A stretch of 64,000 nt of DNA from Aurantiochytrium sp. KH105 (taxonomy: Eukaryota > Sar > Bigyra > Thraustochytrida > Thraustochytriidae): NCBI GenBank assembly GCA_003116975.1, contig BGKB01000037.1:310001-374000 (forward strand), in the 5' to 3' direction. The notes beneath the pieces are model-generated. The model made no database searches. It saw only the letters and a list, made by a program, of their open reading frames with translations, and had not been told where the DNA came from. The translations under genes were made by a program, and so were the position numbers. Shown piece after piece: positions 1-29,973 of this stretch (the stretch's first letter is position 1; every line of letters begins with the position of its first letter).

Positions 1-3000
1 TTGCTAATCAATCAGCGCGACTCGAAAAAGCGCAGAGCGAGACAGACATCGTCTCGCTCTTTGATCTCGAGCCTGGCCAGTTTTTTTCTTTGAGGCGCGG
101 CCTGCGAGGAGGCGGCGCGGTGCCCGCTTCTTGCCGGCCGACCGTTGACCGTTGGCTGGCTATGCTATGCCATGCCATGCCATGCGCGTCGGGCCGGATC
201 TCGCGCACTCGCTCGTAAACTTTTGCTTGCTCGCTCCAGGTCTCGACGCCAGCCACCGTGGCCAGCCTCGACCTTGGTTGGAGAAGAGTTCATTCTTTCC
301 CAACCTCATGGCATCCAGCTTGAACCCAACCGACCCAATCCGATCGACCGAGGCCTAGGCAGACGACTGACTGGGAGCGCAGCCTCGCCGCCGCCACAGT
401 TGGCGCGGTAGGTCGGGCGGCGGCGACCAGCTTTCGCGACAAACTAGCTAGCTTGAGTAACGCCCGTCCTTCCCTCCGGGCTGCATTTGCAGCTTTGACC
501 TTCACTGTCAAGCATCAGCGATACGTTGGATTTGGGCAGCGAGAAGAAATGAAGTGTGCTTCACAGGCAGTCCACCGGGCGGCCGCGACCGACCCGGCCT
601 GCGTGGAATGGAATGCCGACGATCGATCGAGCGAGAAATTCATTGCAGCGCACGGGAAGGAGGCTCGCGCAGCGCAGCGCAGCCCAGACGTGCGAATGGA
701 GAGGCGTGAGACGGACGGGAGGTGGTCGACTCGAAGTCGTTCAATGTGGCTAGCTGGCCGCGACGCGCAGGCGAAGGGACGTGCGGGCAAACAGCCGGTG
801 CGCCTCTCGCCTGGCCTCCTCGATTGCCACCGTCGCGCCGAATCGACAATTTCGTCTTGCGTTCGGTTTTTTTGGCTGCAGCTTGTGGCTTCTTTACTGC
901 GCTGGCTAGGTTGGTGCGATGCTCACGCATCGAATCAAACAAAAAATTATTTACCCATAAATAAAAAACGCGCTCCCTTTTTTTCATTCTCGCACACACG
1001 GCACAGTTCGGACGGCCCGTCCGACGCGTGGCGATTGGCGGGCGGAGGGGCGAGTTGGAAAAACCAAATCTCGGCGCGGCGCGCAGCCGAACGCGCTGCA
1101 GATGCAAACGCGCGCTGCACTACCGCCGCTGCGCTCGTCGCAGCCGCCTTTGTTTCTTCACCCTCCCACTTGAGCGATGCAGGTCGCAGTCCGCCCGCCC
1201 CCCTCCCTTCTTCACTTATTCCCACAGTCGCTGATCGCACCTCGCCCACAGCAGATAGGAGGCGGCCGGCCCTGCTTGGAAGGGGTAAATAAAACAATGC
1301 GTGGAGCGAATCGAGGCCATCGACGAGGCAGGCGCCTGCCTGCCTGCCCTTTCGAGACCTGGCCGCCTGCAGCTGCTGCTGGCCGCCTGGCTCGGGCGGA
1401 GCGGCTGCTTTTTCGCTTGTCTGTCTCGCTCGGGCGCAGACCTGGCAGCTTTAACGCTCAGCTGACCGCCGCCGCGGCGCTGAGCCTGCAAGTGCCGCCT
1501 CTAGGTGCGGTGTTCGTATTCAGATAACCTAACCTAAGCAGCCGGATTTGGTCAATTTATTTGTTGCCTTTGGTTGGTTGATTTGCCAATGGTTGGTTTT
1601 CTAGTTGTGAGCTGAAAGAAGAAGTGGTGGTATAGCGAGAAAGCTGCTACTGAGCGAGAAAAGGGGAACAAAACGAAGCAGCAGCTGCAGGTGTGCTGAG
1701 CTGAGCCAAGCTGAGCGGAGCGGAGTAGGCCGCGGCGGCTTGGTCGGAGAGAGAGGAAAACACGCGCCGCGCCAGCAGCACGATGCGCGACGCGCCGACA
1801 ATACTTCGTTCGACCGTGGGCGAGTGAGTGGAGCAGGCAGGCAGGCGGGCGAGCGAGCGAGCGAGCAAGGCCCAACAGGGGGGGAACGATGGGAGGGAGG
1901 AAAGAACAAGCGCACAACGAAACAGCCTGAGCCCAACCTGCTTGTTTTTAGTTTCCCCCTTTTTCTTTTTAATCCATGCCTTACCTCATGCGATCGTGCG
2001 CTCGTGCGTTCTAGCGGCAGGCGGGGAGAGGATCACTCCGCTCGTACGGCCGCGGCGCGGCGAGAGAGCAAGCGAGATTTAACCGCCGCATGGCCGCACG
2101 CAGGCATGCAAACGGGCGGGGCGGGAGCGAGTTTCTCATTTTTTGATCAAATTGAAAAACTTTCTCTCCCCCAGCTTTGCCGCGGAAGCTCCGCGCCGCT
2201 CACCTTTGCGCCATCGCTGTCACACACATACTTACACACTCGAAGAGTGCGAGGGAGACAGACTCCATGGCTGGCAACAGGAAGGGAAGATACATGAATG
2301 CATGCATGCATGCTTGTACGCATACAAGTGCAGGCAGCGGCAGCAAGCAAAAACAGCGCCGAGAGAAATCGAGCACGAGAGCAACCTGCGCTGCAGCCTC
2401 TTTAATGAGCAACAATCACGCTTGAGGGGAGCAGAAGCTCTTTCTACGCCCCATGTGCCATGCCATGCGCCATGTTGTGTCAAACCTTATCGACCGATTC
2501 GACGATAGCAGGCTGAAAAAAAAAGGTCCAACACGAGTGAACTAACCTTTCTTTTCACGCAAAATCGGACAAAGGCAGCCTCGATGGTGGCGTCGCTCGT
2601 ACCTACCGATCATCACCTGCCTGGCTGGCTGGGCGGCCACAGGAATTCGCCCCTTCGCTGCTTTCTTTCCTCCGCGATCGTCCCCTCCTTTTGTTGTTGC
2701 AGCAGGGTCGGTCAATTCGCCGGTCCATCAGCGAGGCGCGCCCCGCCCGCTCGAGACTCTGCTCCGCCTCGAGGCGAGGCGAGGCGAAGCGAGGCGAAGC
2801 GACTCGAATCGAATTGTCCGCAGGCCGCACCACCAGAAGCGCGGTTGCCAGCTCGCCCCGCGCGTCCATCCATCCACCTCACATCCCGGCCGGCCGCCAT
2901 TGCCGTCGCCCCGCTCGCCCATGTGCGGCTTGGTGCAGTGAACGAAGGCGTTCTCTCGCACCACTTTCAAATTTCCCGTTCTTTCCCTTCGCTCCCCCCC

Positions 3001-4242: not shown

Positions 4243-6813
4243 ATGCGGACAACCCCCGCCGCAATTGTGCTGGCTGCGACCCTCGCGGCCAGCATCCTCG
4301 GACAGAGCCAGGTCTCGGCCCTCGATAGCGACAGGCAGGCTATCCACTTCCACGACGACGAGAATGAGGAGGACCGCCTCTTCCATCCCGTCGAGCACTT
4401 CTCCGTGCGCCGTCTTGATGAAGACAAAATTCAGGTCGATGTCCGCGCTGGCGATCACGTTTTCGTCTCGCACGAGCTCTCGCGCGTGCGCAATTTGTAC
4501 TCCAAGAACGGCAAGCTCCGCATTGGGTCCCCCGACGGCCAGCACGTTGTCAAGACTCGGGAAGACAGGCACGCAAAGTTCATCTTTGAAGGCGAGCACG
4601 AATTTGGCTGGTTTACCTGCTCCTACCGCCCCGAGGAAAACCGCGCCCACCTCTTCGTGCACAACGGCACCAAGTCGTTCGAGGTGACTCATCGTGAGCG
4701 CTTTCTCATGGACATCAACAGCCGCGACCTCGCAACCCTTCCCGAGTCTGAGTTTTGGCTCGAGGTCACCGGAGCCGACGACACGCTCCTGCCTCCCAAC
4801 GTCGACGACAGCGCCGCCGAAAGCTCTCGAGACCTCCGTCGCAATCTTGATGCTGATGACGAGGACGAGGAGGATGACGACACGGACTGCAGCGAGCGCA
4901 CTGCCCCCAATGATGTGATCCTTAAGAGCAAGAATCTCAAGGACCTCAACATTCTTCCCGGCGATGAGACCTCTGAGATCAACCGTCTCGTCAAGGCTGG
5001 CTATGAATCGAGGAACGCAACCAGGACCAAAAAGTCTGCAGTCGTCAAGACTGCCGACTTGAGCAGCGATGAGCTCTCGCCTGCGGGTCGCCGTCTCGCC
5101 GATGCCTACGCCTTCACCCCGGACTGCTACACGGACGATGACCGCGTCCACGAGGTCCTGGTGAACGTCATCTCTGATGCCGCATTCTACAGCATCTATG
5201 GTTCAGAGGACGACGTCCAAGAGGCCTTTGAGACGGCAATCGCCCGGGCGTCCCAGGTGTACACGATCCAGATGAACATTAAGCTCGTTATTCAGGATAC
5301 GTGGATTGCGACCGATACCGCGAGCCCGAGCAGTTGGCCTGACTTTGCCGACTACACGGAGAGCGATGGGTGCCCTTATGATCTCTCCGACCAGCTTGAT
5401 GACCTCACCACCTGGGTGCGAACCCTTGATGACGACGAGGAGCAAGCCGCGCACTTTCATCTCTTCACTGGCTGCAGCGCCAGCTCTTCTGGTGTCGCCT
5501 ACGTCGGTACGCTTTGCAACCTTAACTACAACACCGGTGTGACCAAGAAGACGAGCAGGACATGGAAGACCTTTGCCCACGAACTCGGCCACGGCTTTGC
5601 TGCCACGCACTCCTTTGAGAACGGAATGTACACCACGGGTGGCATCATGGACTATGGCGACGGAACTATTCTTGGAACGAGTCTGTACCGGTTCCGCCTT
5701 GCGCGCCGCGATCAAATGTGCGGAGAGTTCGAGACAGCCCTTTCTGGCTCTTGCGCTTTCATCAACGTTTACGACGATGAGTCGGGCTGTGGCAACACTG
5801 TCATTAGTGACGATGAGGAGTGCGAGTGTGTCGATGGCTCCACCAGCTGCAACGGTTGCAAGAACTGCAAGCTTACCGACGACACGGTCGAATGCAGTAC
5901 TTCGAAGTTCTATATGATTGCCTCTGGATCTCCTTACTCCACGGGCGCTCTCTCGGACGAGGAGTGCTGCGTTGACAACAAGCTTCTTACGGCTGACACT
6001 GCGTGTGATGATGGTTACTGCGGTGGCGGCGGTCTGTGCACTAACCCGTGCACGAGCGACTCCTTGTCTCCGTGTGGCTACAAGAACAGTGGCTGCCGCG
6101 TCAAGTGCACGGACGGTAGCACCTGCAGCTATAACTGGAGGGTAAACAGCGTATACGTTGGCTATGCCGACTACGGAACGCCTTGCACGACCGACGATGG
6201 CGCCGAGGGCATTTGTGGCGATGGCACGGGTGTCTGCACCTACTCGGGCCCGCCCACCCCAAAACCAACAAAGTCCCCCACGAAAGCTCCCACGAGTTTC
6301 CCAACCAAGGCTCCTACCAGCTCTCCGACGTCCTTTCCTACGAGTTTCCCAACCGATTACCCCACGGTATCCCCTACCGCGGCGCCTTCAGTGCTTAAGG
6401 GCGTCTCGTTTCCCTCGAAAAAGTGTGCCAAGAAGAACAGGAAGTGCAAGATCACCGAGGATGGCCTCGCCCGCTTCGGCAACAATGATAACTACGCTTT
6501 TTACGCTTTCGAGGACATCACCAAGAAGACCAAGTTCAAGTGCAATGACAAGACTTTTGGCTTCGACCCCATCCCGGACCAGAAGAAGAAGTTTTGCTGG
6601 TTTGCCCCCATGACTTTCGATTTCGAACTCCTCGCCAAGAACGGCAAGTCGGGCACCGTGACCAAGGCCGGTATCGTCCGCTACGGAGTTGAGGACAAGT
6701 ACGTCTTTAAGACTTACGAGTCCAAGACATCAATCAAGTGCAATGAAGACGAGTTCGGCGTCGATCCTGCGCCGAATTCGAGTTCCAAGAAGTGCCACGT
6801 CAGCTACTTTTAG
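4243..6813 (+). CDS. Secreted metzincin-like zinc metalloprotease with Cys-rich and Pro-Thr linker regions (copy A)
   Basis: The frame is 856 codons without an intron. It opens with a signal peptide (about residues 1-26, hydrophobic core then ...QVSA). A pro-like region with an acidic patch (about 205-215) follows, and a basic GRR site near 283 could be where the pro part is cut. The zinc motif HELGHGFAATH starts at His446, with a GGIMDYG Met-turn about 25 residues on. A Cys-rich, disintegrin-like stretch (about 510-665), a linker of PTxxPT repeats (about 669-715), and two tandem ~65-residue modules ending in a CHVSYF tail complete the protein. The domain order resembles ADAM/reprolysin-type proteases. 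The usual metzincin Gly (HExxHxxGxxH) is Ala here. I infer an extracellular, probably zymogen-activated protease; the substrate is unknown. Copy B at 13585 is collinear and keeps the same motifs. Confidence 0.88.
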   Translation: MRTTPAAIVLAATLAASILGQSQVSALDSDRQAIHFHDDENEEDRLFHPVEHFSVRRLDEDKIQVDVRAGDHVFVSHELSRVRNLYSKNGKLRIGSPDGQHVVKTREDRHAKFIFEGEHEFGWFTCSYRPEENRAHLFVHNGTKSFEVTHRERFLMDINSRDLATLPESEFWLEVTGADDTLLPPNVDDSAAESSRDLRRNLDADDEDEEDDDTDCSERTAPNDVILKSKNLKDLNILPGDETSEINRLVKAGYESRNATRTKKSAVVKTADLSSDELSPAGRRLADAYAFTPDCYTDDDRVHEVLVNVISDAAFYSIYGSEDDVQEAFETAIARASQVYTIQMNIKLVIQDTWIATDTASPSSWPDFADYTESDGCPYDLSDQLDDLTTWVRTLDDDEEQAAHFHLFTGCSASSSGVAYVGTLCNLNYNTGVTKKTSRTWKTFAHELGHGFAATHSFENGMYTTGGIMDYGDGTILGTSLYRFRLARRDQMCGEFETALSGSCAFINVYDDESGCGNTVISDDEECECVDGSTSCNGCKNCKLTDDTVECSTSKFYMIASGSPYSTGALSDEECCVDNKLLTADTACDDGYCGGGGLCTNPCTSDSLSPCGYKNSGCRVKCTDGSTCSYNWRVNSVYVGYADYGTPCTTDDGAEGICGDGTGVCTYSGPPTPKPTKSPTKAPTSFPTKAPTSSPTSFPTSFPTDYPTVSPTAAPSVLKGVSFPSKKCAKKNRKCKITEDGLARFGNNDNYAFYAFEDITKKTKFKCNDKTFGFDPIPDQKKKFCWFAPMTFDFELLAKNGKSGTVTKAGIVRYGVEDKYVFKTYESKTSIKCNEDEFGVDPAPNSSSKKCHVSYF

Positions 6814-8760
6814 ACTGCTGCTGCTTGGCTTGTGCTGCAATGGCTCTCGCTCGCCCCATTGTGAATTTTATGATTTGACTGAACGCCTCAAGGTCGTTCT
6901 GACTACTTTGCGCCGACCTCTTTTCTTTTTACCAAGAACATGACACGACATGACCCTAGTTCATGACAAGAGCGCGCCGGGCGTCTGATTGATTCATCAT
7001 TTGTGTGTGACTCTCTGACCCCCATGACTGACGACACCCGGCCGCTCGCTCGTGCTCGTATTGAGCTTTCTGACATCTCTCTGGTAGAGATCCTATTCTC
7101 CGTCTTTTTGTCAATCTGTGACTGCCCCCGCGCGCGACGCTCGCGCGCATTGACCCTTCGGAGATCTGTGTTTGTGATTGCCCCATTTTGTGTCTATTCT
7201 GATTTAACCGATACAAGAAACATCGATGCATTGATTCATTGATTGATTGTTGAGTGCAACGATGCCATGCCATGCATGATTCACTGTCCATTGGAAACTT
7301 CCTGAAAAAAAGTACTTTGCTGTTACTAGAATTGTAATCTTCAATACGTTACCAAGCTCACCCATCTCCTGAATTTGCGCACATCTTTTTCAAAGGGAAG
7401 AGGCGATGTCTTCTTCGTTTTGCTTCCCGTATGGAGCAAAGTTCGTTAGGCTTTTTACCACTCTTCTCTTTTCAGAGAAAAAGCGAACCGCTGACATTTC
7501 TACATCCGAATTGCCCAAAAGAAAAGTACTCATTCTCCTGAGTTTGGACTACCCGGATTCCAGTCAGCTGCAGCGCAGAAGAGTATTGCGCCAAGACTTT
7601 GTTCAGATGGCCTCGCGATATAGAATGGAAAGATACAGAGCTTTTCATTGTGAAAAGCCATGTTGACAAGGAAACAAAAGAGGATCAAGACACAAAGGTA
7701 AAGTAAGCTGCTGCCGAGCGCTTTCAAAAGTTCACAGTCAAGTTCCTGCCCTGCGTCTCCTTGGCCAAGTCCCGTAAGCTGTTGTGCAAATTGCGCACAA
7801 CCTTCGAACGCACCAGGCACTCGTTCCACCAGCGAACGCGCATTCCTCGCTTCGCTCGTTGATTTCGTATACCTCCCAGCCGGTTGTTGATAACACGAGC
7901 GTTCCCGGCAGATCGGCTCGCGCGCTTGCGCATGCGAGTGCTTGGAAGGGTCCGCCGGCCGGAAGCGGGCCAGGCACTCAAAGCCGAGGTCCGCTCGCAC
8001 TCATCGCTGCACTGCTGTCATCGCTCCGCAACATCCACGACGTCATACTACTTGGCCTCTCGCTCCAGAAAACCGGCCACTGCCACTTGCACGCCATACG
8101 TGCATGCGTGCGTGCGTGCGTGCGTCGATGGTGCCGATCTTCGCTGCTTCGGCGGCAGCAGCGCCTTGCTTCTCCCTGCCTCTTTCGCATTGTTGCTGCA
8201 AGCTCAGCGGCACGCGCCGTCGGTCGGCCGCGCCGCCACGGGGATCGCCTGCGTCGGCGCCGCATTTCGATCCCTCGATCGGCCGGTTGGGTGGGCGGTC
8301 GCGTCGCGCCATGCCAGCAGCTGCAGCCAGCTGCAGCAGGAGCTGCAGCTTCTGCCTCAGCCCCGTTCTCGGGACTTGCTTCTGCACGTGCAAGCACTGC
8401 CGGGCGCGCGAAGTGAAGTGAAGTGAAGGGAAAGGAATGAAGTGAGCGAGTGATCTCACCCGCGAGAGCTCCGAGGCGGCGCGAGCGGGTGCGGCGCGAC
8501 TCGGCGGTCCCACCGCTTCCTGGCGGGCGGCAGCGGCAGTGGCGGGTGGCAGGGGGGCGGCGCGAAGCGTCCGGGACGGTCTGCGGCTGCTGCGAGGGGA
8601 GTGGTTGGTTAGACATGGATGGAGATGTGAAGCGAGGTTCGTTTCGTTTCCGTGGAGCTCCGAGCGCTGCCGGTAACGGCGTCGGAGGCGTGCACACGAA
8701 GCTTGCCAACGGAAGGCTTGCAAGGCTAGGCCAGAAAGAGCAAGTCGATGCAAGAGAAAT

Positions 8761-13584: not shown

Positions 13585-16143
13585 ATGCGATCAACAACCG
13601 CAGCGCTAGTCCTGGCTGCGAGCCTCGCAGCCAGCATCCTCGGCCAGAGCCCAGTCTCAGCGCTTGAGAGCAGCAAGCAGGCCATCCACCTTCACCACGA
13701 CGAAAACGAGGAGGACCGCTTCTTCCACCCCGTCGAGCACTTCTCCGTGCGTCGCCTCGACGAAGACAGAATTCAGATTGACGTCCGCGCCGGTGAACAC
13801 GTCTACGTCTCGCACGAGCTCTCGCGCGTACGCCACTTGTACGCCAAGAACGGCAAGCTCCGCATTGGATCGCCCGACGGCCAGCACATTGTAAAGACTC
13901 GGGAAAGCAGGCATGCCAAGTTCATCTTTGAGGGCGAGCACGAATTCGGCTGGTTCACCTGCTCCTACCGCCCCGAAGACAATCGTGCCCATCTCTACGT
14001 GCGCAACGGCACCAAGTCCTTCGAGGTTACCCACCGCGAGCGCTTTCTCAAGGACATCCACAGCCGCGACCTGGCGACCCTTCCCGAGTCCGAGTTCTGG
14101 CTCGAGGTCTCCGGAGCCGGCGACTCGCTCCTGCATCCCGACGTTGATGTCAACGCCAACACCGCCGAGAGCCCTCGCCACCTCCGTCGTAGCGCTGCTA
14201 GCGACGATGACGAGGAAGAGGACACGGACTGCAGCCAACGCACTGCCCCCGATGATGTGATCCTCAAGAGCCAGGATCTCGAGGACCTCACCATTCTTCC
14301 CGGCGATGAGACCAAGAAGATCAACCGTCTCGTAAAGGCTGGTTACGAGTCGAGGAACGCAACTCGAACCAAAAAGTCTGCTCTTGTCAAGACCGCAGAT
14401 CTGACGACGAACGAGATCTCGCCTGCGGGTCGCCGTCTTGCCGACGCCTACGCCTTCACCCCGAACTGCTACACGAACGATGACCGCGTCCACCAGGTCT
14501 CGGTCAACGCCATCGCTGATGCTGCATTCTACAGCATCTATGGGTCCGAAGATGACGTTCAAGAGGCCATCGAAACGGCTGTCGCCAAGGCGTCCCAGGT
14601 GTACACGATCCAGATGAACATCAAGCTCGTCATTCAGGATACGTGGATTGCGACTGATGGATCGATCCCTAGCAGCTGGCCCGATTTTGCTAGTAACAAA
14701 GAGGGCAGCGGCTGCCCTTATGATCTCTCGACGCAGCTCGATGATCTCACCACCTGGGTGCGCAAGCTTGACGACGACGAGGAGCAAGCCGCGCACTTTC
14801 ACCTATTCACTGGCTGCAGCGCCAGCTCTTCTGGTGTCGCCTACGTTGGTACGCTCTGCAACCTCAACTACAACACTGGTGTAACCAAGAAGACGAGCAG
14901 GACATGGAAAACCTTTGCCCACGAACTCGGCCACGGCTTCGCTGCCACGCACTCCTTTGAGAACGGGATGTACAACACGGGTGGCATCATGGACTACGGC
15001 AATGGGCAAATCCTCGGAACGAGTCTGTACCGGTTCCGCCTTGCGCGCCGCGATCAAATGTGCGGAGAATTCGAGACGGCCCGTTCCAGCTCTTGCGCTT
15101 TCATCAACGTTTACGACGATGAGTCGGGTTGCGGCAATGGCGTCATCGCTGATGGGGAAGAATGCGAGTGCGCCGATGGATCCACCAACTGCAACGGTTG
15201 CAAGAACTGCAAGCTCACTGACGACACGGTCGAATGCAGTACCTCCAAGTTCTACATGGTTGCCGCTGGATCTCCTTACACCACAGGCGGATACTCGGAC
15301 AAGGAGTGTTGCGTTAAGAACAAGCTCCTCACAGCCGATACTGCGTGCAGCGATGGCTATTGCGGTGGCGGTGGGTTGTGCACCAACCCGTGCGAGAGCG
15401 ACTCCTTGTCTCCGTGTGGCTACAAGAACGGCGGCTGCCGCGTTCAGTGCACGGACGGCAATACCTGCAGCTATAACTGGAGGGTGAACAATGCGTACGT
15501 TGGCTATGCCGACTACGGAACGCCTTGCACGACTGACGATGGCGCCGAAGGCATCTGTGGCGATGGCACGGGTGTTTGCAAGTACTCGGGCCCGCCGACC
15601 CCCAAGCCAACAAAGTCCCCCACGGCCTTTCCCACAAAGTACCCCACGTACGCCACGACGAACTACCCTACCAAGTCCCCCACCAAGTCTCCCACCCCTT
15701 TTCCGACCGCGTCTTCGACGGTGCTCAAGGGCATTTCGTTTCCCTCCTCAAAGTGTGCCAAGAAGAACAAAAAGTGCAAGATCACCGAGGCCGGTCTTGC
15801 TCGATTTGGCAAGGACGACGTCTATGCATTTTACGCTTTTGAGGATATCTCTGACACGACCAAGTTCAAGTGCGACGAAGACACTTTTGGCTTCGACCCC
15901 AACCCAGATCAGAACAAAAAGTTCTGCTGGTTCACGCCAATGACTTTCAACTTTAATCAGCTTGCCAAGGACGGAAAGTCGGGCACTGTCAAGAATGCAG
16001 GCATCGTCCGTTACGGAGCTGATGACAAGTATGTCTTCAAGGTCTACGATTCCCGGACCACGATCAAGTGCGAGGCGGACGAATTTGGCGCTGACCCCGC
16101 CCCGAACTCGAATGCGAAAAAGTGCTTTGTCAGCTACTTTTAG
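13585..16143 (+). CDS. Secreted metzincin-like zinc metalloprotease (copy B, tandem paralogue)
   Basis: The frame is 852 codons, intronless, and collinear with copy A from the signal peptide (about 1-26) to the last residues (CFVSYF). The zinc motif HELGHGFAATH again begins at residue 446, with a GGIMDYG Met-turn, and the metzincin Gly is again Ala. Differences cluster in the acidic patch (about 200-215), the Cys-rich region and the Pro-Thr linker (about 671-712), whose repeat number and phrasing differ from copy A. The two C-terminal tandem modules are kept. Both copies keep all residues I can recognise as catalytic, so neither looks like a pseudogene. I infer a local gene duplication giving two extracellular proteases, possibly with different expression because the upstream sequences differ. 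Confidence 0.88.
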   Translation: MRSTTAALVLAASLAASILGQSPVSALESSKQAIHLHHDENEEDRFFHPVEHFSVRRLDEDRIQIDVRAGEHVYVSHELSRVRHLYAKNGKLRIGSPDGQHIVKTRESRHAKFIFEGEHEFGWFTCSYRPEDNRAHLYVRNGTKSFEVTHRERFLKDIHSRDLATLPESEFWLEVSGAGDSLLHPDVDVNANTAESPRHLRRSAASDDDEEEDTDCSQRTAPDDVILKSQDLEDLTILPGDETKKINRLVKAGYESRNATRTKKSALVKTADLTTNEISPAGRRLADAYAFTPNCYTNDDRVHQVSVNAIADAAFYSIYGSEDDVQEAIETAVAKASQVYTIQMNIKLVIQDTWIATDGSIPSSWPDFASNKEGSGCPYDLSTQLDDLTTWVRKLDDDEEQAAHFHLFTGCSASSSGVAYVGTLCNLNYNTGVTKKTSRTWKTFAHELGHGFAATHSFENGMYNTGGIMDYGNGQILGTSLYRFRLARRDQMCGEFETARSSSCAFINVYDDESGCGNGVIADGEECECADGSTNCNGCKNCKLTDDTVECSTSKFYMVAAGSPYTTGGYSDKECCVKNKLLTADTACSDGYCGGGGLCTNPCESDSLSPCGYKNGGCRVQCTDGNTCSYNWRVNNAYVGYADYGTPCTTDDGAEGICGDGTGVCKYSGPPTPKPTKSPTAFPTKYPTYATTNYPTKSPTKSPTPFPTASSTVLKGISFPSSKCAKKNKKCKITEAGLARFGKDDVYAFYAFEDISDTTKFKCDEDTFGFDPNPDQNKKFCWFTPMTFNFNQLAKDGKSGTVKNAGIVRYGADDKYVFKVYDSRTTIKCEADEFGADPAPNSNAKKCFVSYF

Positions 16144-16688: not shown

Positions 16689-17708
16689 TTAGACCTCCGC
16701 AACGGTGCGAGAAATGTCATCGTTCTCTACGCCCTGGCGTGGTGACGAAAGCGGGCTTCCAACTGAACCATCACCGGCCGTTTCTCCATCGACATTCAAT
16801 GGTGCCAAGTATGGCGAGCCCTTGAGGATCGCCACGCCAACACATGCAGAGTATAAGAATGTGGCCCACGTGAGAAAGGTGAATGCTGCCGCGGCACCTG
16901 CTTTTGAAATTCCAAATGAGACATCCCCAGCAAGACCGCCAAATACGAGTTCGTCCATGAGCTTGCTCAATCCACGGAGAGCTTGCGCACTGCTTGCCGT
17001 GGTGGAAAACGCCGAAAATATCAGAAACGCGAGAACAATGTCTCCGACTGCAACAATCCACGAGAACAGCTTGGCCCGGCTTCCAGACACGAAGTTCTTG
17101 CCAAGGACCTTGAATCCAAATACAGCTGTTGCACTCACGTAAAGCCATGTCATGAGCATTAGCACGAGGTCCCAGACAACGCCGGAGATGAAAGTCTGTA
17201 TACTTGCAAACCCTGATTCGTGAAACAGAGAGTTAAAGTTCGAGATGCTTGCCGCCGCACATGCCCAAGCAATCAAGCATAACACAAATTGGGCAATCCG
17301 TGCGTAGAGCAAACAATTTACGGAGTGATGCACCTCGGCTGTCGAGTTGACATCGAAGTTGACGCCTGCACTTCTGGCCCATGAAGGAATGATCCTCACC
17401 GAGTCCTCTGTCATTCGCTGAAGGCCGTCGCGTTGGCCTGTAGAATAATGACCCGAGCGCGGCGACAGGGGAGAGAATCCAGACCTCGGCGATCCGGGGA
17501 ATCCCAAATCTGGCCCGGGAGGCTTGGCTTGGCCTGCTCCACTTTGCATATTTCTGTCGATCTCTTCCGCCTTGATAGCCTCAGCCGTACCAGTCGATGT
17601 TTTCCCATCTTCTTCAGCCTCTTGTTCTTCCTCGCGAACCTGCTGTTCTTCAACTTCGCGCGCAGTCTCCGCGCCCTCGGCCTCATGATTTTGCACATCG
17701 TCGCCCAT
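16689..17708 (-). CDS. CASP-like/MARVEL-type four-helix membrane protein with acidic N-terminal tail
   Basis: The protein is 339 residues from the first in-frame ATG (17708). A long hydrophilic N-terminus, rich in Glu and then in Pro-Arg-Ser (about 1-115), is followed by four membrane segments. The first contains ARIAQFVLCLIAW (Arg and Gln inside the helix). The third contains VGDIVLAFLIFSAFST, closely like the helix-3 signature of CASP-like proteins (Asp in the membrane, then small residues). The C-terminal tail has SP motifs. The family includes MARVEL and plant Casparian-strip membrane proteins, which form membrane scaffolds or fences; the role here is unknown. Two smaller relatives lie at 27602 and 29410. 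The gene ends convergently with metalloprotease copy B. Confidence 0.75.
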   Translation of the reverse strand: MGDDVQNHEAEGAETAREVEEQQVREEEQEAEEDGKTSTGTAEAIKAEEIDRNMQSGAGQAKPPGPDLGFPGSPRSGFSPLSPRSGHYSTGQRDGLQRMTEDSVRIIPSWARSAGVNFDVNSTAEVHHSVNCLLYARIAQFVLCLIAWACAAASISNFNSLFHESGFASIQTFISGVVWDLVLMLMTWLYVSATAVFGFKVLGKNFVSGSRAKLFSWIVAVGDIVLAFLIFSAFSTTASSAQALRGLSKLMDELVFGGLAGDVSFGISKAGAAAAFTFLTWATFLYSACVGVAILKGSPYLAPLNVDGETAGDGSVGSPLSSPRQGVENDDISRTVAEV

Positions 17709-20289: not shown

Positions 20290-22613
20290 TCACATGAACG
20301 CATTGCGGAAAAAGTTGCGGCTTGACGGCGCCTGTTGCTGCTGCGGCGGCGGGCCCTGCTGGTACCCGTTGAAGCTCTGGTGCGAGCTGTAGCGGTGCAT
20401 GGGCGAGCCGGGCGGGCCGCCCTGCGCGAAGCGAGGGTCAGGCCCCATCATGGACATGGACTCGGTGCTTTGGGCGCGGTGCATCATATGGCCCTGGTGC
20501 TGCTGCTGGGGGTGGCCCTGTCCGTAGGCGTCAAAGTTGTGGCCGCCGTACTCCGTGGACGCAAAGCTGCCGCTGCGCGGGTAGCTCGCCACGCGCTGAT
20601 TCGGGTCCTCCTGCATGTACGAGCCGGCGCGCGAGCGCGGATCAAATCCCATGTCGCCGTCCACCTGGCCCGGCAGCGTGCCGGGTGAGACCTGACGCGT
20701 AGAAGCTGCGCTGCGGGGAGCAGCGTCATCTTCCGGACCGTAGGCGCCATATGCCGGACCGTCGGCCGGACCCTGGTAGTAAGGTTCCGCGCCGGGCGAG
20801 TGCTCGCGCTGGTCCTCAATCGTGCGGAAAGAACGTTCGCTCTCGTCGTCAGGGTGCGCCGACGGGGACCTGTGCATGCCCTGGACGTTGTCGTACAGCT
20901 TGCGCTCAATGTCCGCAGAAACGTCAATGTCGCGCCAGTGTGCGGCCGCGTCCTTCCAGTGCGAGACAAGCTCGTAAATGTGATTCTCATCCAGGATGTG
21001 GCGAATGACACCGTCGCAGATCGTCCGCTGGCGCTCCTCGCGCTCGAGGACGTCAACCATGTTCTCCTCTTCAAAGGTGTATCCGAGGACGGGCAAGTAA
21101 TACGGCTTGCGGTGGTAGTGCGTGCGGAAGCGCTGGATGTCCACGCGCTTCTCCGCGGAGACGGAAAGGTTAACAAAGATCACGTGGTAGGTGCCGAGGT
21201 GGTCGCGCTTGAGCATGTTCACGGCCATGTTCACGTCAAAAGCGAATTCCGTAATGATTCCTGTCTGGTTGAGCATGAGGCTAAAGAGGCGCTGCATCTC
21301 AATGCGCGGCTCAATGATGAGCACTGCAGGGCTACGGCGACCAATCGTGCGGCGAATGCGACGCTGCTTGAGCGCGTCCTCCGAAATGTCGCCCATCTTG
21401 ATCTGCTTAGCCGTGAGGTTCGAAGCGTACGGGGACACGGCGTGCTGCGCGGCGTAACGTGAAGTGTACGGCTCCAAAACAACAAAGCGCACATACCACA
21501 CCAAAAAGCCGCACATGTTCTTGGCAAAGAGGTCTCCAACAGCGTCTCCGATTTTATCCGTGGCTTCGTCCACGAGATTGAACACAGGAGGTCCAATGAA
21601 GTAAAGGACCGGAAAGAAAGTCCAGGAAACGAAGAACGTCACCAAGGCGAAAATGATCCAGTTCCATGCACCTTCAGAGTGAGCGACAAAGTGCTTCTTG
21701 CGCATCGCGGCGAGCTTGACCACATCGTACGCGAGCCAGAGCTGCGCAATTCAACATTGTCCGTTTCCACCATATTCTCTGGTTGTTAGTGTCACGTGCT
21801 TTGCTTCGCTCTGTTTCCTCAACACATTCAAGCATACAGGCTTGCCTTCTCCAAGGTTTAAGATGCCAAGTTCACGCCTTCTCCTAGGTCATGAGCTCTA
21901 CGATAAAAAAATCGCGCCCTCTCTTTCGTGAGGAACTTACAGCAATCAGCGTCGCGGCGCCAACAAAGACTCCCTTGAGGGCAGGCTCCGTCTGGGCGGC
22001 GCCGAGCATACCAAAGCAAATCATAAAGATGTCCTTCACCATCATGAAGATCGTCTTTCCCATGTCGAGAAGGTCCGGTACGAAAAGATGCAGAAGAACG
22101 CACATGTTCGAAATGATCACCGGGCAGCACACTGTAGAGCGAAGGTCAGCAACCAAAGGGGACGAAGATCATCGTCGATGAACCCGGTCTGTCAGTCTAT
22201 CTTGTTTTGCCCTATCCATTGGCAAGAACTGCTCGAAAATGAGTCCTTCCAAAAGCAAACTTACTCATCCAAAAAATGTAGCGGCCCAAGGCAAATTCAA
22301 AGTGCTCGTCACTGTTAACGTCCACGCGCACATCAAGGTTCATGTAGCTAGTAGTGACAAAAGTGCTCAGGCAGTAGTACACGCAGGTAACCATCTGGAC
22401 AAAGATGGGCGCCAGGTTGCAGCGCTTCGCTTGCCATTGTGCAGAGTAAAAGAGCAGCAGGAATGCGGAGCACACAAAGACGCAGAGACGCGCGCCAAAG
22501 ACTCCCGACGGCAGCTCGTTCGTCGCGAGAAAGCGCGGCTCCTCAAACATCATGTCAGCGTCGTCAATCATGTTCAGCGAGTCGTCCTGCGCCAGGGACA
22601 TCAGGTCCGCCAT
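20290..22613 (-). CDS. Channelrhodopsin-family microbial rhodopsin with C-terminal pseudo-receiver domain (gene 1)
   Basis: Three exons: 22613-22265, 22131-21941 and 21741-20290 (donors GTAAGT in both introns; acceptors CTACAG and GCGCAG), giving 663 residues. The joins align without gaps to the paralogue at 24886. Seven helices span about 35-265. Helix C reads RYIFWMMCCPVIIS: the Schiff-base counterion position (Asp85 of bacteriorhodopsin) is Phe114, and Cys119 sits at the position of ChR2 Cys128. Asp150 pairs as in the ChR2 'DC gate'. Helix F keeps the W..FP pattern (Trp220, Phe223, Pro224). Helix G is GDLFAKN, with Asp250 and the retinal-binding Lys254. Residues ~318-405 form a receiver-like fold in which the phospho-acceptor is Asn371 and the acidic pair is EP. 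A disordered Gly/Gln/Ser tail follows. Channel function is inferred from homology; anion selectivity would fit labyrinthulean relatives but is not proven. Confidence 0.87.
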
Positions 22614-23618
22614 CGTGTCTATCTGTCCGTCCGTCCGTCCGTCTGTTAAACGGGTGTTGCAGGGTCTAATTTGCAAGAAGTAGTCTCCCTACTTGAGCGA
22701 ACGAAGCTTTGCGCGACTTCGGTTCGCTGCGCTGCGCTGCGCTGCGCTGCGCTATGCCTTGATAGGCCAGGCAAGATGTGCTGTGGCTTGGCTTGGCTTG
22801 GCTTGGCTCGATGTACACTCCTTTCCCCCCGCCCCTTCGGCTTTGCTAGGTTCGATGACCTGTCTTGATTTGACGTTGACCACGGCCGAAACACCCGAGT
22901 CGGCTGTGCACAGCCCGAAAGAGGTTTGCCATCGAGATCCTTCCATCCAACGATTTCCGAGCCATGTGCAGACAGCAAAAGAGAGGATAGCTAAGTTTCG
23001 TCCTTTCAACACTTCCGAGGAAGTAGACAACTGCGTCCGTCCATGGAGTCTTACATCCCTTGAAATCCATCAACTGACACTTTATAGCTCGCATACCTCC
23101 GCGGTGGAAGTCCACAACGCCGTGCGCGTCACGAACAGTCGCGCAGCTGCCCTGCATGCGGGGTGCTGGTGAACGGATATGATCCGTTTGCGGTTGATCA
23201 CTGTGAAATGAGGAGGGCCCCACGCGGAAAAACCTATCCGTTGACCGGAACTTGGTGCCACTGTGACCGCGTCCTGGCGCCTTTGTATTCAGGGAAGCAC
23301 CGCAAGTCCTCGCCACTGTGGACGCTGCTAAAGCGACTCGTTCGAAATCTATGCTCAAAGCGGCCTCGCCGAGCGGTTGAAAGCAACGTACACCACGTCT
23401 GTCATTGCTCAAAGGAAAAGGAATCAATCGTGGATGATTCGCGACCTATCGCGCTGAGCCGGCTCAACGCGTTGGATAGGCAACGCGCACAATGTCCGTT
23501 TTTTCTCGTGCGTAAAAGTGATCACCGTTGCGGGCCAGCCTTGCGGTTTAATTTTTTCCCCAATGAAAACTTATTTTGCCTTCGCCTTGCGTCTCCGCGT
23601 AGGCTCATCTTCGGTCAG

Positions 23619-23682
<64 letters not shown>

Positions 23683-24885
23683 TTTCGGGGGCGCGCGGCG
23701 TGGCCAGCCCTGCGCCGTGCGACACGTCAAGGCAAGAAAGAGAGCGGCATAACCAGCGCCGAATGTCAACGGATTGTCGCCAATTGTCTCCGTTTGAGGG
23801 CAACCTATATCCTCTTCCCCCCTTCGTCTGATACGAATCAGCTAGTATCAAGCCAGGCGGACTGTGTTTGCTTGATCCTGTGCGCACGCTGGCTGGCAAG
23901 CGGTGCTTCTTGAAGCGTCCATCCGAACTTCGACTCCAGGATCTTGTGTGGCCGAACGAAGGCCGTCTGAGTAAGAGGCTGCCCGGACGAGAGGCACGTG
24001 AAATCCGGTTTCGTGCCCGATTGGTCGGCCAGGCAGTCGCGCTCTTGTGCGCGCCAAACACTGATAGTGACACAGTGCCACCTGTTCAGAAAGAAATGAG
24101 GTTTTTTCTTTTTATTGCAATTCAACCTGAGCAAAGCTCAGGCGTGTCTTCAAGATGCCTGCCTTTCAACGGCACGCGGTCTGGCAAACAGACAGACGAG
24201 CGGACGCTCGATCAGAGTGTGACGCGGCCGTCGTGAGCCTGGTCGAAAATGGGTACGTTGCGATATGTCCGCTGAGCCGATGTAGTGCCATGTCATGCTC
24301 CACATGCTTCAAGGTCTTTTGATGAACGGGACCTGTACACAGCGATACACAAGTCACCGCAACGGTGTCCGTTGAGCGATCCGGTGAGGGCAGGTGTGTC
24401 GCCGAGCCGACACCTTGACGGTGACGCTCTGTACGCTGCGAGAACAAGAGAAAGAAGCAGGAGAAGAAGAAGAAGAAGAAGGCGATATAGGAAGCGTGAT
24501 ACGGAGCAAACGCTTCCAGTGCGGAAAACGGCTTCGACTCGAGTCGCGCGTCAGGTGCGTCCAAAACCCTTAACGAGCCCTCGAGCGTGGCGGGTTGATC
24601 GAGCTTCGGGCTGAAGGCTGGCTGCCATCTTCGCGCCTTCCTTCATCCAGCTTGTTGGAGACCGACCGACGGACAGTATCAGCTGGCTCATCGATAGATC
24701 AAATTGTTTGGAAGACCAGGACGACGACGACGGCAACGACAACAACGACAACGTACTCTTCATCAACAAATCTTCCCTCGCGAGGGGTTCGGAGACCGAT
24801 ATCGTTAGAAAGACAGCACGAGCAAGGCTGAAATAAGAAGGATAAGAAGAAAACCAAGAAAGAAGGCCTTGACGAGCAAGGCAGA
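22614..24885. other. 2.3 kb divergent intergenic region between the two rhodopsin genes
   Basis: The two rhodopsin genes point away from each other, so this segment should hold both promoters. It carries short (gctgc) and (ttggc) repeats near 22728-22810, a long (TC) tract at 23622-23673 and a purine-rich stretch around 24445-24485. Overlapping frames on both strands give no recognisable product, and I see no RNA gene. Confidence 0.55.
23622..23673. repeat. (TC)n dinucleotide tract of about 26 units
   Basis: This is an uninterrupted TC run between the divergent rhodopsin genes, about 1.0 kb from gene 1 and 1.2 kb from gene 2. It ends in a short (ac) run. Confidence 0.95.
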
Positions 24886-26826
24886 ATGAGCTACAACGAG
24901 TCGGTGTGGCGCGAAGACTTCGCACAGGTTCTTCTTGCTCGGCCCAAAGGCTCTGGCGTGGTCTCGCAGGGCGTCGCAGGTGCTCGTTTGTGCGTGTTTT
25001 CGTGCAGTATCGCACTTCTATGCTTCTATGCCTTTCAGTGGAAAATCGGACGTTGCAATCTGCATCCCATCTACGTGCAGTTTGTCACCTTTTGCGTGTA
25101 TATTCTCTCATGCTTTGGAACCACGGACTTTCTCTACATTCCCGTCGTTGACCATGCCGGCGTGACCTTTGATCTCGCCATTGGTCGCTACCTCTTCTGG
25201 ATGATGACCTGCCCGGTGATCATCTCCAACGTAAACATTCTTCTCAATATTATGACGCCCGATGACATTGAGCTGCCCCAGGTGACATTTATGATGGTCA
25301 AGGACATTGTCATGATTGCCTTTGGTGTGCTGGCAGCCATGCAGCAGAACATCACGCTCAAGTGGATCTTCAACCTTGCGTCGTACTTTGTGTGCTTCTG
25401 GCTGGTGGCGGATCTCATCGTCCTCATGAACGAGAAGAAAAAGTTCTTTATGGTGTACGAGCGCTGCTGGGAGTGGATCTTCGCCGTCATGATTTACTTC
25501 TTTTGCGCGCAAAGTCTTTTCATCTTCCTCTACGCGGTTGGCCCGCCCTGCTTCAACATCATGGGACCGGACGGCGACCGCATTGGTCACTCGGTCGGTG
25601 ATCTCTTTGCCAAGAATCTTTTTGGCTTTTTCGCCTGGTACGTGCGCTTCGTTGTCCTTGACCCGCATGTGAAGCGCATCCGCGGCGCGCGCGCGGTGTC
25701 GCCGTACGCCATGCGCCCCGCGGCTGCCACCGATCAGAACTCGAACAGGGTCTCCTTCCTCGGCCGCAAGACCAACACGAAGAAGACCACGGCCGGCCCC
25801 CGGCCCCCGCGTCTGCTCATCGTGGAGCCTAAGATCGAGCTCCAGCGCCTTTTCATGTTCATCCTGCGCGACGCTGGCATCGAGGGCGAGATCGCCTTCG
25901 ACCTTGAGTCTGCGACCAAGATCATCCGCCGCGATTCGCTCACGCACTACGACGCCATTCTGCTCAACCTAACGGTGGCCTTTGAGCAGCGCATCGCCAC
26001 GCAAAAGTTCCGCATGCAGTTCCGCCGTAAGCCCTTCTACCTTCCCCTGCTCGGCTACTGCTTCGACGACAACTACGCCCCGCTCGCGGAGCGCGAGGAG
26101 GTCGAGCGCAACCTTTCGGACGGCTTCGTGCGCCACGTGCTCGACGAGGCCCATCTCTTCGATGTGGTGTCACACTGGCGCGAGGCCTCGGGCCACTGGC
26201 GCGAGATCGACGACTCTGCGGACATGGAGCGCCGCCTGCACCAGCACGTGCAGGGCGTGCACATGTCGCCCATCGAGGACCACGGTGACATCGGCAGCAT
26301 GAGTCTCGTGGACACCAAGTACAGGGCCGCCGACGAGCAGCCGCACACCACCAACAGCGGCAACTCGAACAACTCCCGGGAGCGTGAGCCGCGCACCGCC
26401 CTGATGGTGGAGTCGCCGACGAGCCCCGGCAGCCCCTCGGACACGCGCTCGGTCTCGGGCCAGGCGCCGCAGCAGCAAAAGTCGGGCGGCGCGCGCATCT
26501 CGCTGCGCCGCAAGAGCTCCTTCGAGACCATGAACGACAACCTGCGCCACCAGCTCAAGGTCGAGGAGGAGCAGGTCGCGCGACTCAAGCAGCAGGGCCA
26601 GGACCGCCAGCAGGTGCAGTCCCCGGTCACCGCCGGCGACGACTACCAGCAGCAGTCTTCGGGCCGCGGCTACTACGAGCCGCCCTCCAGCATCGACTCG
26701 CAGGCCGAGCCGCCCTCAGGCCGCAGCGCCACCAACTCTGCCGCCGGCAAGGACGACGACCTCGCCGACGACGAGCTCGGCCCCAAGCGCCGCACCAGCC
26801 TCATCGTCAAGGGCTCCATGATGTGA
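24886..26826 (+). CDS. Channelrhodopsin-family microbial rhodopsin with C-terminal pseudo-receiver domain (gene 2, intronless)
   Basis: The frame is 646 codons without introns. Helix A carries FYAFQWK, as in algal channelrhodopsins (FYAYQ.WK). Helix B has lost the acidic row seen in ChR2 (the Glu90 position is Ser). Helix C reads RYLFWMMTCPVIIS: the counterion position is Phe104 and Cys109 equals ChR2 Cys128. Asp140 completes the DC pair. In helix F the nearly invariant Trp and Pro of the retinal pocket are Gln209 and Ile213, unlike gene 1. Helix G is GDLFAKN, with Asp239 and retinal-binding Lys243. A receiver-like domain (about 308-395) has EP for the acidic pair and Asn361 at the phospho-acceptor. 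The tail is Gln/Ser-rich with RRKSS and KRRTS sites that suit basophilic kinases. It resembles red-shifted anion channelrhodopsins known from labyrinthuleans; selectivity and colour are inference. Confidence 0.9.
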   Translation: MSYNESVWREDFAQVLLARPKGSGVVSQGVAGARLCVFSCSIALLCFYAFQWKIGRCNLHPIYVQFVTFCVYILSCFGTTDFLYIPVVDHAGVTFDLAIGRYLFWMMTCPVIISNVNILLNIMTPDDIELPQVTFMMVKDIVMIAFGVLAAMQQNITLKWIFNLASYFVCFWLVADLIVLMNEKKKFFMVYERCWEWIFAVMIYFFCAQSLFIFLYAVGPPCFNIMGPDGDRIGHSVGDLFAKNLFGFFAWYVRFVVLDPHVKRIRGARAVSPYAMRPAAATDQNSNRVSFLGRKTNTKKTTAGPRPPRLLIVEPKIELQRLFMFILRDAGIEGEIAFDLESATKIIRRDSLTHYDAILLNLTVAFEQRIATQKFRMQFRRKPFYLPLLGYCFDDNYAPLAEREEVERNLSDGFVRHVLDEAHLFDVVSHWREASGHWREIDDSADMERRLHQHVQGVHMSPIEDHGDIGSMSLVDTKYRAADEQPHTTNSGNSNNSREREPRTALMVESPTSPGSPSDTRSVSGQAPQQQKSGGARISLRRKSSFETMNDNLRHQLKVEEEQVARLKQQGQDRQQVQSPVTAGDDYQQQSSGRGYYEPPSSIDSQAEPPSGRSATNSAAGKDDDLADDELGPKRRTSLIVKGSMM

Positions 26827-27601: not shown

Positions 27602-28153
27602 ATGATGGCAAGCATGTCTTCCCTGTTCCATCCTTCGACGGCCGCGGAGGTGACCAAGGTAATCAAGGTCCTTACCGTTCTTAGAGCTATCCAGGCCGTG
27701 CTCGCGGCTGTCGCATTGGGTCTGGCTGCCGGTGACTCCTTATACACTGGTAGCAATGTGATTTCTTGGTCCATCGCCGCCGCCGTTCTCGGTCTGCTCT
27801 TCGCACTCTTTTCTGGAATCCTGGGCGTCCTCATTTTCATGCAGGTTACTCAGAATGACACTGTTGTTGCAAGTTTCGCTCTCTCCGGCATGCCTGGTGA
27901 CCTCATCCTCTCGTACGCCGCCATCTCAGGGTTCTCCTGCGTTGCCACTCTGTCAACGAACTGCACGTCGTACTCCAGCGTGTACTTTACCTCTTCTTGT
28001 GGAAACATTAGCGCTGCGGCCGCCTTTTACTTTTTCCTCTTCGTCTCCTACTTTGTGGCGCTGCCCTTCTCCCGCGCGATTTACCAAAACAAGGAGCTCT
28101 TGTCCACCGGGGCGCCCAAGGCGCAGAGCAGCCCGGCCGAGGTCCAGGCCTAA
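27602..28153 (+). CDS. Small CASP-like/MARVEL-type four-helix membrane protein
   Basis: The protein is 183 residues, almost all membrane. Helix 1 has LRAIQAVLA (Arg and Gln within the segment). Helix 3 has GDLILSYAAISG, with the membrane Asp typical of CASP-like proteins. The extracellular loop between helices 3 and 4 has three Cys. The tail ends FSRAIYQNKELL and a short Pro/Ser stretch. It is a paralogue of the gene at 29410, which ends in the same YSRAIFLNKELL phrase. The role is unknown; a membrane scaffold function is inferred from the family. It follows rhodopsin gene 2 on the same strand. Confidence 0.75.
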   Translation: MMASMSSLFHPSTAAEVTKVIKVLTVLRAIQAVLAAVALGLAAGDSLYTGSNVISWSIAAAVLGLLFALFSGILGVLIFMQVTQNDTVVASFALSGMPGDLILSYAAISGFSCVATLSTNCTSYSSVYFTSSCGNISAAAAFYFFLFVSYFVALPFSRAIYQNKELLSTGAPKAQSSPAEVQA

Positions 28154-29409: not shown

Positions 29410-29973
29410 ATGGAAAATGTGCAGGCACTGCAAGCTCTGAAAGAACCAAAGAATGCCGACGAGATGAAGAAGCTCTTCAAACTTTTTCTCGGCTTCAGAT
29501 TTGTCCAAGCCCTCCTCGCAGGTCTTTCTTCGGGACTTGTTGCGGCTAATTTGGTCAACATGTCAATCTTTAGCGCAGTGTATTGGGCTCTTGCCACCGC
29601 GCTCGCTGCCTTTTTCTTTACAATCGGAAACGGAATTCTCGGAGCTCTGCTTTTCTTTCGCTGCGTCAAAGGCGAGACGGCGTCCAAGCTCTTCTACATG
29701 CCTCTTTGGATCATCGACCTCTTCTTTTCGTACAATTTCATCTCGTCTTTCGCCGTTCTTCTCACGATTTCAACCTTTTGCAGCGCTTTCTCGTCGGAAG
29801 GATACACCGACTCTGCATGCCAGGCCGTAGACGGTGGGGCTGCCGTTCTCTTCATTGCATTCGCTTTGTTCTTCGTCTCGCATCCCTACTCGCGTGCGAT
29901 CTTCCTGAACAAGGAGCTTTTGGCGTCTTCAGACAAGGTGCAGCATGGTGCTGCCGCAGTTGAGCCCGTGTAA
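29410..29973 (+). CDS. Small CASP-like/MARVEL-type four-helix membrane protein (paralogue)
   Basis: The protein is 187 residues with four membrane helices. Helix 1 carries FRFVQALLAG, helix 3 carries WIIDLFFSYNFIS with the membrane Asp, and the 3-4 loop has two to three Cys. The end, YSRAIFLNKELLASS, matches the gene at 27602, so the two are tandem duplicates that have diverged strongly elsewhere. The family suggests membrane organisation rather than catalysis. No intron is apparent. Confidence 0.75.
   Translation: MENVQALQALKEPKNADEMKKLFKLFLGFRFVQALLAGLSSGLVAANLVNMSIFSAVYWALATALAAFFFTIGNGILGALLFFRCVKGETASKLFYMPLWIIDLFFSYNFISSFAVLLTISTFCSAFSSEGYTDSACQAVDGGAAVLFIAFALFFVSHPYSRAIFLNKELLASSDKVQHGAAAVEPV

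Follow-up and report, generated by a model that had tools for sequence, protein, structure and literature searches.

What two channelrhodopsin-type genes lying head to head contribute to a thraustochytrid, and whether their products work together, is the question raised by a 64,000-nucleotide stretch of the Aurantiochytrium sp. KH105 genome (contig BGKB01000037.1, positions 310,001 to 374,000, hereafter the window; the contig, denoted C37, belongs to a 76-Mb assembly of 367 contigs). We consider it likely that this locus belongs to a Hondaea-like thraustochytrid and pairs two channelrhodopsins, where HfACR1, a red-shifted anion channelrhodopsin (ACR) of the RubyACR type, is accompanied by a second ACR of different colour, and where pseudo-receiver domains behind both opsins dock or assemble the channels for light sensing by the zoospore.

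Both genes encode channelrhodopsin-type opsins

The original prediction placed two divergent channelrhodopsin-family genes, fused to receiver-like domains, around a common 2.3 kb region, and both the gene pair and the region were recovered (Table 1). The exons of the minus-strand gene were placed with the Hondaea fermentalgiana protein as a guide, and both introns are of the GT-AG type. The 471-residue open reading frame (ORF) at 20290-21705, which had been taken for the minus-strand gene, is indeed coding, but it comprises only most of the last exon of a 663-residue protein.

Both products matched Pfam Bac_rhodopsin (PF01036) above its cut-off, with 61.4 bits for the plus-strand protein and 33.2 bits for the last exon of the minus-strand protein. 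The predicted retinal lysines are in place (Lys243 in the plus and Lys254 in the minus protein), and the Cys128/Asp156 pair of ChR2 is kept as Cys109/Asp140 and Cys119/Asp150, respectively, the minus-strand numbers being right for the spliced protein. The loss of the acidic row in helix B was likewise recovered, as all five ChR2 glutamates (82, 83, 90, 97 and 101) are replaced in both proteins, and the aspartate at the site of bacteriorhodopsin (BR) Asp212, aligned to a C1C2 fragment, is kept in both.

Membership of the channelrhodopsin family was upheld by comparison with solved structures. The nine best rows for the plus protein were chlorophyte-type channelrhodopsins and KnChR (E 1.8e-15 to 4.5e-10), with the next non-channel at 0.0023, and the minus protein gave eight chlorophyte-type rows (E 8.4e-14 to 5.2e-9). 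By sequence, KnChR (1.3e-6) scored no better than a pump (2e-6) against the minus protein, and GtACR1 was a poor match to the plus protein (E 0.44). Profile searches of solved structures returned rhodopsins among the 60 rows listed; the profile of one alignment, A2, is dominated by full-length rows, so that its result does not bear on the receiver domain. A structural model of relative P0005, identical to the minus protein at 657 of 663 residues, has seven helices, and by fold KnChR, ChR2 and C1C2 came first, with GtACR1 and pumps later; its mean predicted local distance difference test score is 60 and its predicted template modelling score 0.40, the low values being found for the most part in the tail (467-663), with others at the N-terminus and in two loops. 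Judged by score only, both proteins are nearer to channelrhodopsins than to pumps or sensory rhodopsins.

Anion selectivity, predicted as probable, stands at that strength. The site of BR Asp85 is Phe104 in the plus and Phe114 in the minus protein, and a carboxylate is absent there from all 11 ACR rows compared, among which the plus protein and P0001, and the minus protein and P0005, are near-duplicates. Known ACRs are described without a carboxylate at this site (PMC8818676), and labyrinthulean ACRs without a Glu90 homolog (PMC8406140). At the ChR2 Glu82 and Glu90 sites, where glutamates mark cryptophyte ACRs and MerMAIDs (PMC8406140), we found H60/T68 in the plus and A68/T76 in the minus protein.

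The plus-strand gene corresponds to HfACR1

The plus protein is identical to FCC1311_007872 of the thraustochytrid H. fermentalgiana at 631 of 646 residues. It carries F104, M143 and A242, the last directly before the retinal lysine, and these three positions are given as sites of HfACR1 at which mutation shifts the protein to the blue (PMC12448745). The matching sites of the minus protein fall at 114, 153 and 253, off the HfACR1 numbering. Because the numbering fits the plus protein and not the minus protein, the plus-strand gene is, as far as numbering and species tell rather than the letters of MT002469, HfACR1 or an allele of it. HfACR1, cited under GenBank accession MT002469 in a paper that gives RubyACR action maxima of 590-610 nm (PMC10147648), has been published as an ACR whose action spectrum peaks at 610 nm (PMC8818676). 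As such, the predicted link to red-shifted labyrinthulean ACRs proved closer than proposed. Anion conduction and colour are published for HfACR1 only.

Two different retinal pockets

The minus protein is identical to FCC1311_007882 of H. fermentalgiana at 657 of 663 residues, and FCC1311_007872 and FCC1311_007882 are each listed on a 535,287-base contig. To compare the pockets, we used the substitutions W142Y, W182Q and G186I, which mirror residues unique to RubyACRs, and F138N beside them (PMC11473104). The plus protein has N163, Y167, Q209 and I213, a set shared with P0001 and P0002 (3 of the 11 ACR rows), while the minus protein has V and T in helix E followed by W220 and P224 instead of the RubyACR-unique residues; the helix-E pair (Tyr/Asn sites) was matched by spacing, as C1C2 has a gap there. 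Since this is an ordinary Trp/Pro pocket, the minus-strand channel would respond at a shorter wavelength than a RubyACR, not necessarily in the blue and perhaps in the green. The guess of green comes from the A. limacinum (Aurantiochytrium limacinum) ACRs, whose colours in the original RubyACR paper are reportedly 485, 545 and 590 nm. That the two forms differ in colour had been part of the original prediction; the difference stands for the pocket residues, and it extends to the wavelengths indirectly, through the colour deduced for the minus protein.

In the opsin tree, the plus-strand gene grouped with P0002 (support 100/98) and the minus-strand gene with P0004 (support 100/100), from which the split of the two genes predates those relatives; the tree has one outgroup fragment, which gives no test of channelrhodopsin placement, and carries a long-branch warning.

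A second copy of the locus and the shared region

Contig C105 holds the same gene pair in the same orientation, with DNA about 93% identical. Positions 15317-35366 of the window are collinear with C105:101000-120800, and the main blocks are 88.6-95.8% identical. Both copies of the plus protein are 98%, and both copies of the minus protein 99%, identical to H. fermentalgiana. Many genome searches gave matches in pairs, and the assembly looks like that of a very heterozygous or hybrid diploid.

The region between the two start codons is a candidate divergent promoter by position, and through it the two genes may be co-regulated as originally proposed. It is 92.7% identical between C37 and C105, which is not above its surroundings, and a promoter inferred from conservation was therefore rejected. 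A gene within the region was also rejected: its longest ORF has 207 residues (23208-23831), but the C105 copy, whose longest ORF has 98, does not list it among its longest. A CT microsatellite lies near 23618-23680.

Comparing the two copies, we estimated the ratio of nonsynonymous to synonymous substitution rates (dN/dS), which rests on small substitution counts. For the whole proteins the ratio was 0.112 (plus) and 0.028 (minus), for the opsins 0.057 and 0.049, and for the tails 0.334 and 0.020; over the pseudo-receivers it was 0.040 for the plus protein (one nonsynonymous and seven synonymous substitutions) and 0 for the minus protein (none and seven). Both genes are under purifying selection.

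The receiver-like domains have lost the phosphorylation residues

The receiver fold and its strand-helix order are present in the structure comparison of the modelled domain, and in this the original prediction of receiver-like domains was correct. The match to Pfam Response_reg, however, is not significant, with one of seven domain members matched at E 0.017 and 12 bits for P0004 against a cut-off of 30.2, and the ACR loci are not among the at least 36 receiver matches in the genome. The database name of P0006 is 'Response regulatory dom...'. In 11 rows (P0007, which is cut off, being left out), the first acid is kept as Glu in 11/11 and the second acid is lost in 11/11, the phospho-acceptor Asp is lost in 10/11, and the Lys, whose loop was aligned with doubt, is replaced in 11/11. 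As such, these are not ordinary phosphorelay receivers. P0003 is the only row with Asp at the phosphorylation site, yet it lacks the second acid and the Lys.

The two proteins of the pair are 50% identical over the opsins, 49% over the pseudo-receivers and 22% over the tails. Because dN/dS over the pseudo-receivers is low, their identity between the paralogs is level with that of the opsins, and the phosphorylation residues are lost, the pseudo-receivers are maintained for a purpose that is not ordinary phosphorylation. The role of the large channelrhodopsin C-terminal domain 'remains unclear' in the words of PMC12448745, and constrained pseudo-receivers on both channels offer a handle on it. 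Among the papers listed by our literature search, none joined a receiver domain to labyrinthulean ACRs; the original RubyACR paper, which lay outside it, may treat the C-terminal domains.

A proposed light response and the points against it

Under the paired-locus reading, red light with a maximum of about 610 nm would act on the retinal at Lys243 of HfACR1 and open its anion pore, and the second, anciently diverged ACR would respond at a shorter wavelength. The pseudo-receiver, not phosphorylatable in the usual way, would together with its long helix probably assemble the channel or dock partners, and the light-driven change in membrane potential would probably steer the swimming zoospore. 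Phototaxis has been inferred for thraustochytrid channelrhodopsins (PMC8818676), and the RubyACR AlACR1 drops significantly after A. limacinum zoospores settle (PMC12221091). Retinal can probably be made, as 1318-residue open frames matching phytoene synthase lie on two contigs and the genome also gave two pairs of carotenoid-oxygenase matches, four in all.

Several points weigh against this reading. The BR Asp85 site is described as no sole indicator of anion selectivity (PMC8818676), and at all three HfACR1 blue-shift sites the minus protein has the same residues (F, M and A), which would allow it a rather red colour as well. When zoospores settled, the drop in AlACR2 and AlACR3 was not significant (PMC12221091). 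The docking or assembly role rests on lost chemistry and on constraint measured from few substitutions, and the Thr/Ser kept in 8 of 11 rows, together with the Asp of P0003, runs counter to it. Finally, no recording of the minus protein was found in a search that left aside the original RubyACR paper, which may describe it; the name 'HfACR2' does not occur among the papers listed.

Alternative readings of the pair

An unlikely alternative is that the two proteins, held together by contacts of their opsins and by the pseudo-receiver and the long helix behind it, form one natural two-colour anion channel, a red RubyACR with a greener subunit, co-transcribed from the shared 2.3 kb region. It would suit the head-to-head order found on both C37 and C105, the combination of one red-type and one ordinary pocket, and pseudo-receivers about as similar as the opsins. 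Channelrhodopsins form dimers or trimers (PMC12448745), and there is a precedent in a chytrid, where the far-red NeoR is encoded on the strand opposite RGC1/RGC2 and needs to form a heterodimer with these in order to function, concerted bidirectional transcription being suggested (PMC8815786). However, RubyACRs expressed alone give large currents (PMC8818676), unlike the obligate RGC heterodimers, and the seven-transmembrane domain suffices for channel activity (PMC12448745). If the two proteins did combine, the zoospore would compare wavelengths by means of a channel that parallels the NeoR/RGC heterodimer and arose independently of it. The head-to-head pairing makes a two-colour or heteromeric zoospore channel directly testable.

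A little more doubtful is the view that the minus protein is a photosensor signalling through its cytoplasmic domain and not a channel. In this protein the receiver-fold domain is under as much constraint as the opsin, and among the 11 rows certain changes, Cys118 at the position of BR Thr89 being one, occur only in it and in P0005. Against this, it has the channel-type Cys/Asp pair, has lost the helix-B glutamates as in its sister, and finds its best matches among channelrhodopsins; its sister, in which the domains are laid out alike, is a channel (PMC8818676). Working phosphorelay receivers through which histidine kinases tune the channels are very improbable, since the phospho-acceptor, second acid and Lys are lost as counted above, despite the receiver fold and the canonical hybrid kinases in the genome (at least 36 receiver and at least 38 ATPase matches, mostly in pairs).

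Relatives, a third paralog and neighbouring genes

Protein searches, with scoring limited to the 7,995-7,998 candidates that had most words in common with the query, gave the ten relatives P0001-P0010. P0003 and P0007 are each listed on a 136,917-base contig, which suggests linked ACR genes elsewhere. P0006, SCF082_LOCUS50377 of Durusdinium trenchii on a 12,438-base contig, is a labyrinthulean-type ACR with a pseudo-receiver under a dinoflagellate name; contamination or transfer is possible. Viral relatives were rejected, since none of the 25 pattern matches that alignment A1 produced on viral contigs encodes a relative.

Six rhodopsin matches in the genome represent three loci, each on two contigs. 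At its C-terminus the third ACR paralog adds a MYND finger, which scored 29.9 and 30.7 bits against a cut-off of 22.7 and is present in all three of its relatives found: P0008, the H. fermentalgiana homolog named 'Programmed cell death protein 2', P0009, an Aurantiochytrium transcriptome sequence with its N-terminus cut, and P0010 (24.0 bits). Such a finger may point to another partner inside the cell. 'Channelrhodopsin' and 'MYND' co-occurred in only one paper, on the heart, the original RubyACR paper lying outside the search.

Small membrane-protein ORFs flank the ACR pair at 16692-17708 (minus), 27602-28150 (plus) and 29410-29970 (plus). The first two match MARVEL, though at scores under the curated cut-off, and the last, for which Pfam gave no match, resembles the second by eye. 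Further away, 4243-6810 and 13585-16140 (both plus) have M12B reprolysin-type metallopeptidase matches at an equal place in both proteins.

Table 1. Features of the ACR locus and of the third paralog (window positions unless another locus is named)
Feature	Position	Strand	Description
Plus-strand gene	24886..26826	+	HfACR1-type RubyACR, 646 aa, single exon
Layout of plus protein	residues ~29-262, ~310-430	+	opsin; pseudo-receiver, then helix; low-complexity tail
Pseudo-receiver and long helix, plus protein	25783..26250	+	residues 300-455, stretch modelled
Minus-strand gene	20290..22613	-	second ACR, 663 aa, exons 22613-22265, 22131-21941, 21741-20290
Intron 1, minus-strand gene	22132..22264	-	133 nt, GTAAGT...CAG
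Intron 2, minus-strand gene	21742..21940	-	199 nt, GTAAGT...CAG
Pseudo-receiver and long helix, minus protein	20863..21357	-	stretch aligned
Shared region	22614..24885		2272 bp between both start codons, candidate divergent promoter
Third ACR paralog	L001:184-2223	-	opsin, pseudo-receiver, C-terminal MYND finger; the two copies on contigs C99, C102
Third ACR paralog	L002:1414-3453	+	as above

Comparison with known systems

The closest known system is HfACR1 itself, which the plus-strand gene resembles in its 98% identity to FCC1311_007872, in the numbering of F104/M143/A242 and in the RubyACR pocket residues; from FCC1311_007872 it differs at 15 of 646 residues. The chlorophyte channelrhodopsins (C1C2, ChR2 and Chrimson) and KnChR are the best solved-structure matches by sequence, and by fold for P0005, whereas both proteins here have neither the glutamates of helix B nor a carboxylate at the BR Asp85 site. 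The pseudo-receivers are similar to response-regulator REC domains in terms of fold and strand-helix order, but the second acid, the phospho-acceptor Asp and the Lys are replaced. A. limacinum has three named ACRs, AlACR1-3, one of them a RubyACR (PMC12221091), which compares, by description and not by sequence, with the three rhodopsin loci here. In the NeoR/RGC cluster of the chytrid Rhizoclosmatium globosum, another zoospore-former, far-red and ordinary rhodopsins are also encoded on opposite strands of one cluster; these are guanylyl cyclases rather than channels, and the heterodimer demonstrated for them is conjecture for the ACR pair (PMC8815786). Taken all together, the locus is mostly ordinary in kind, with one channel already published and the other its sister within the family; less usual are the placing of two pocket types head to head and the pseudo-receiver.

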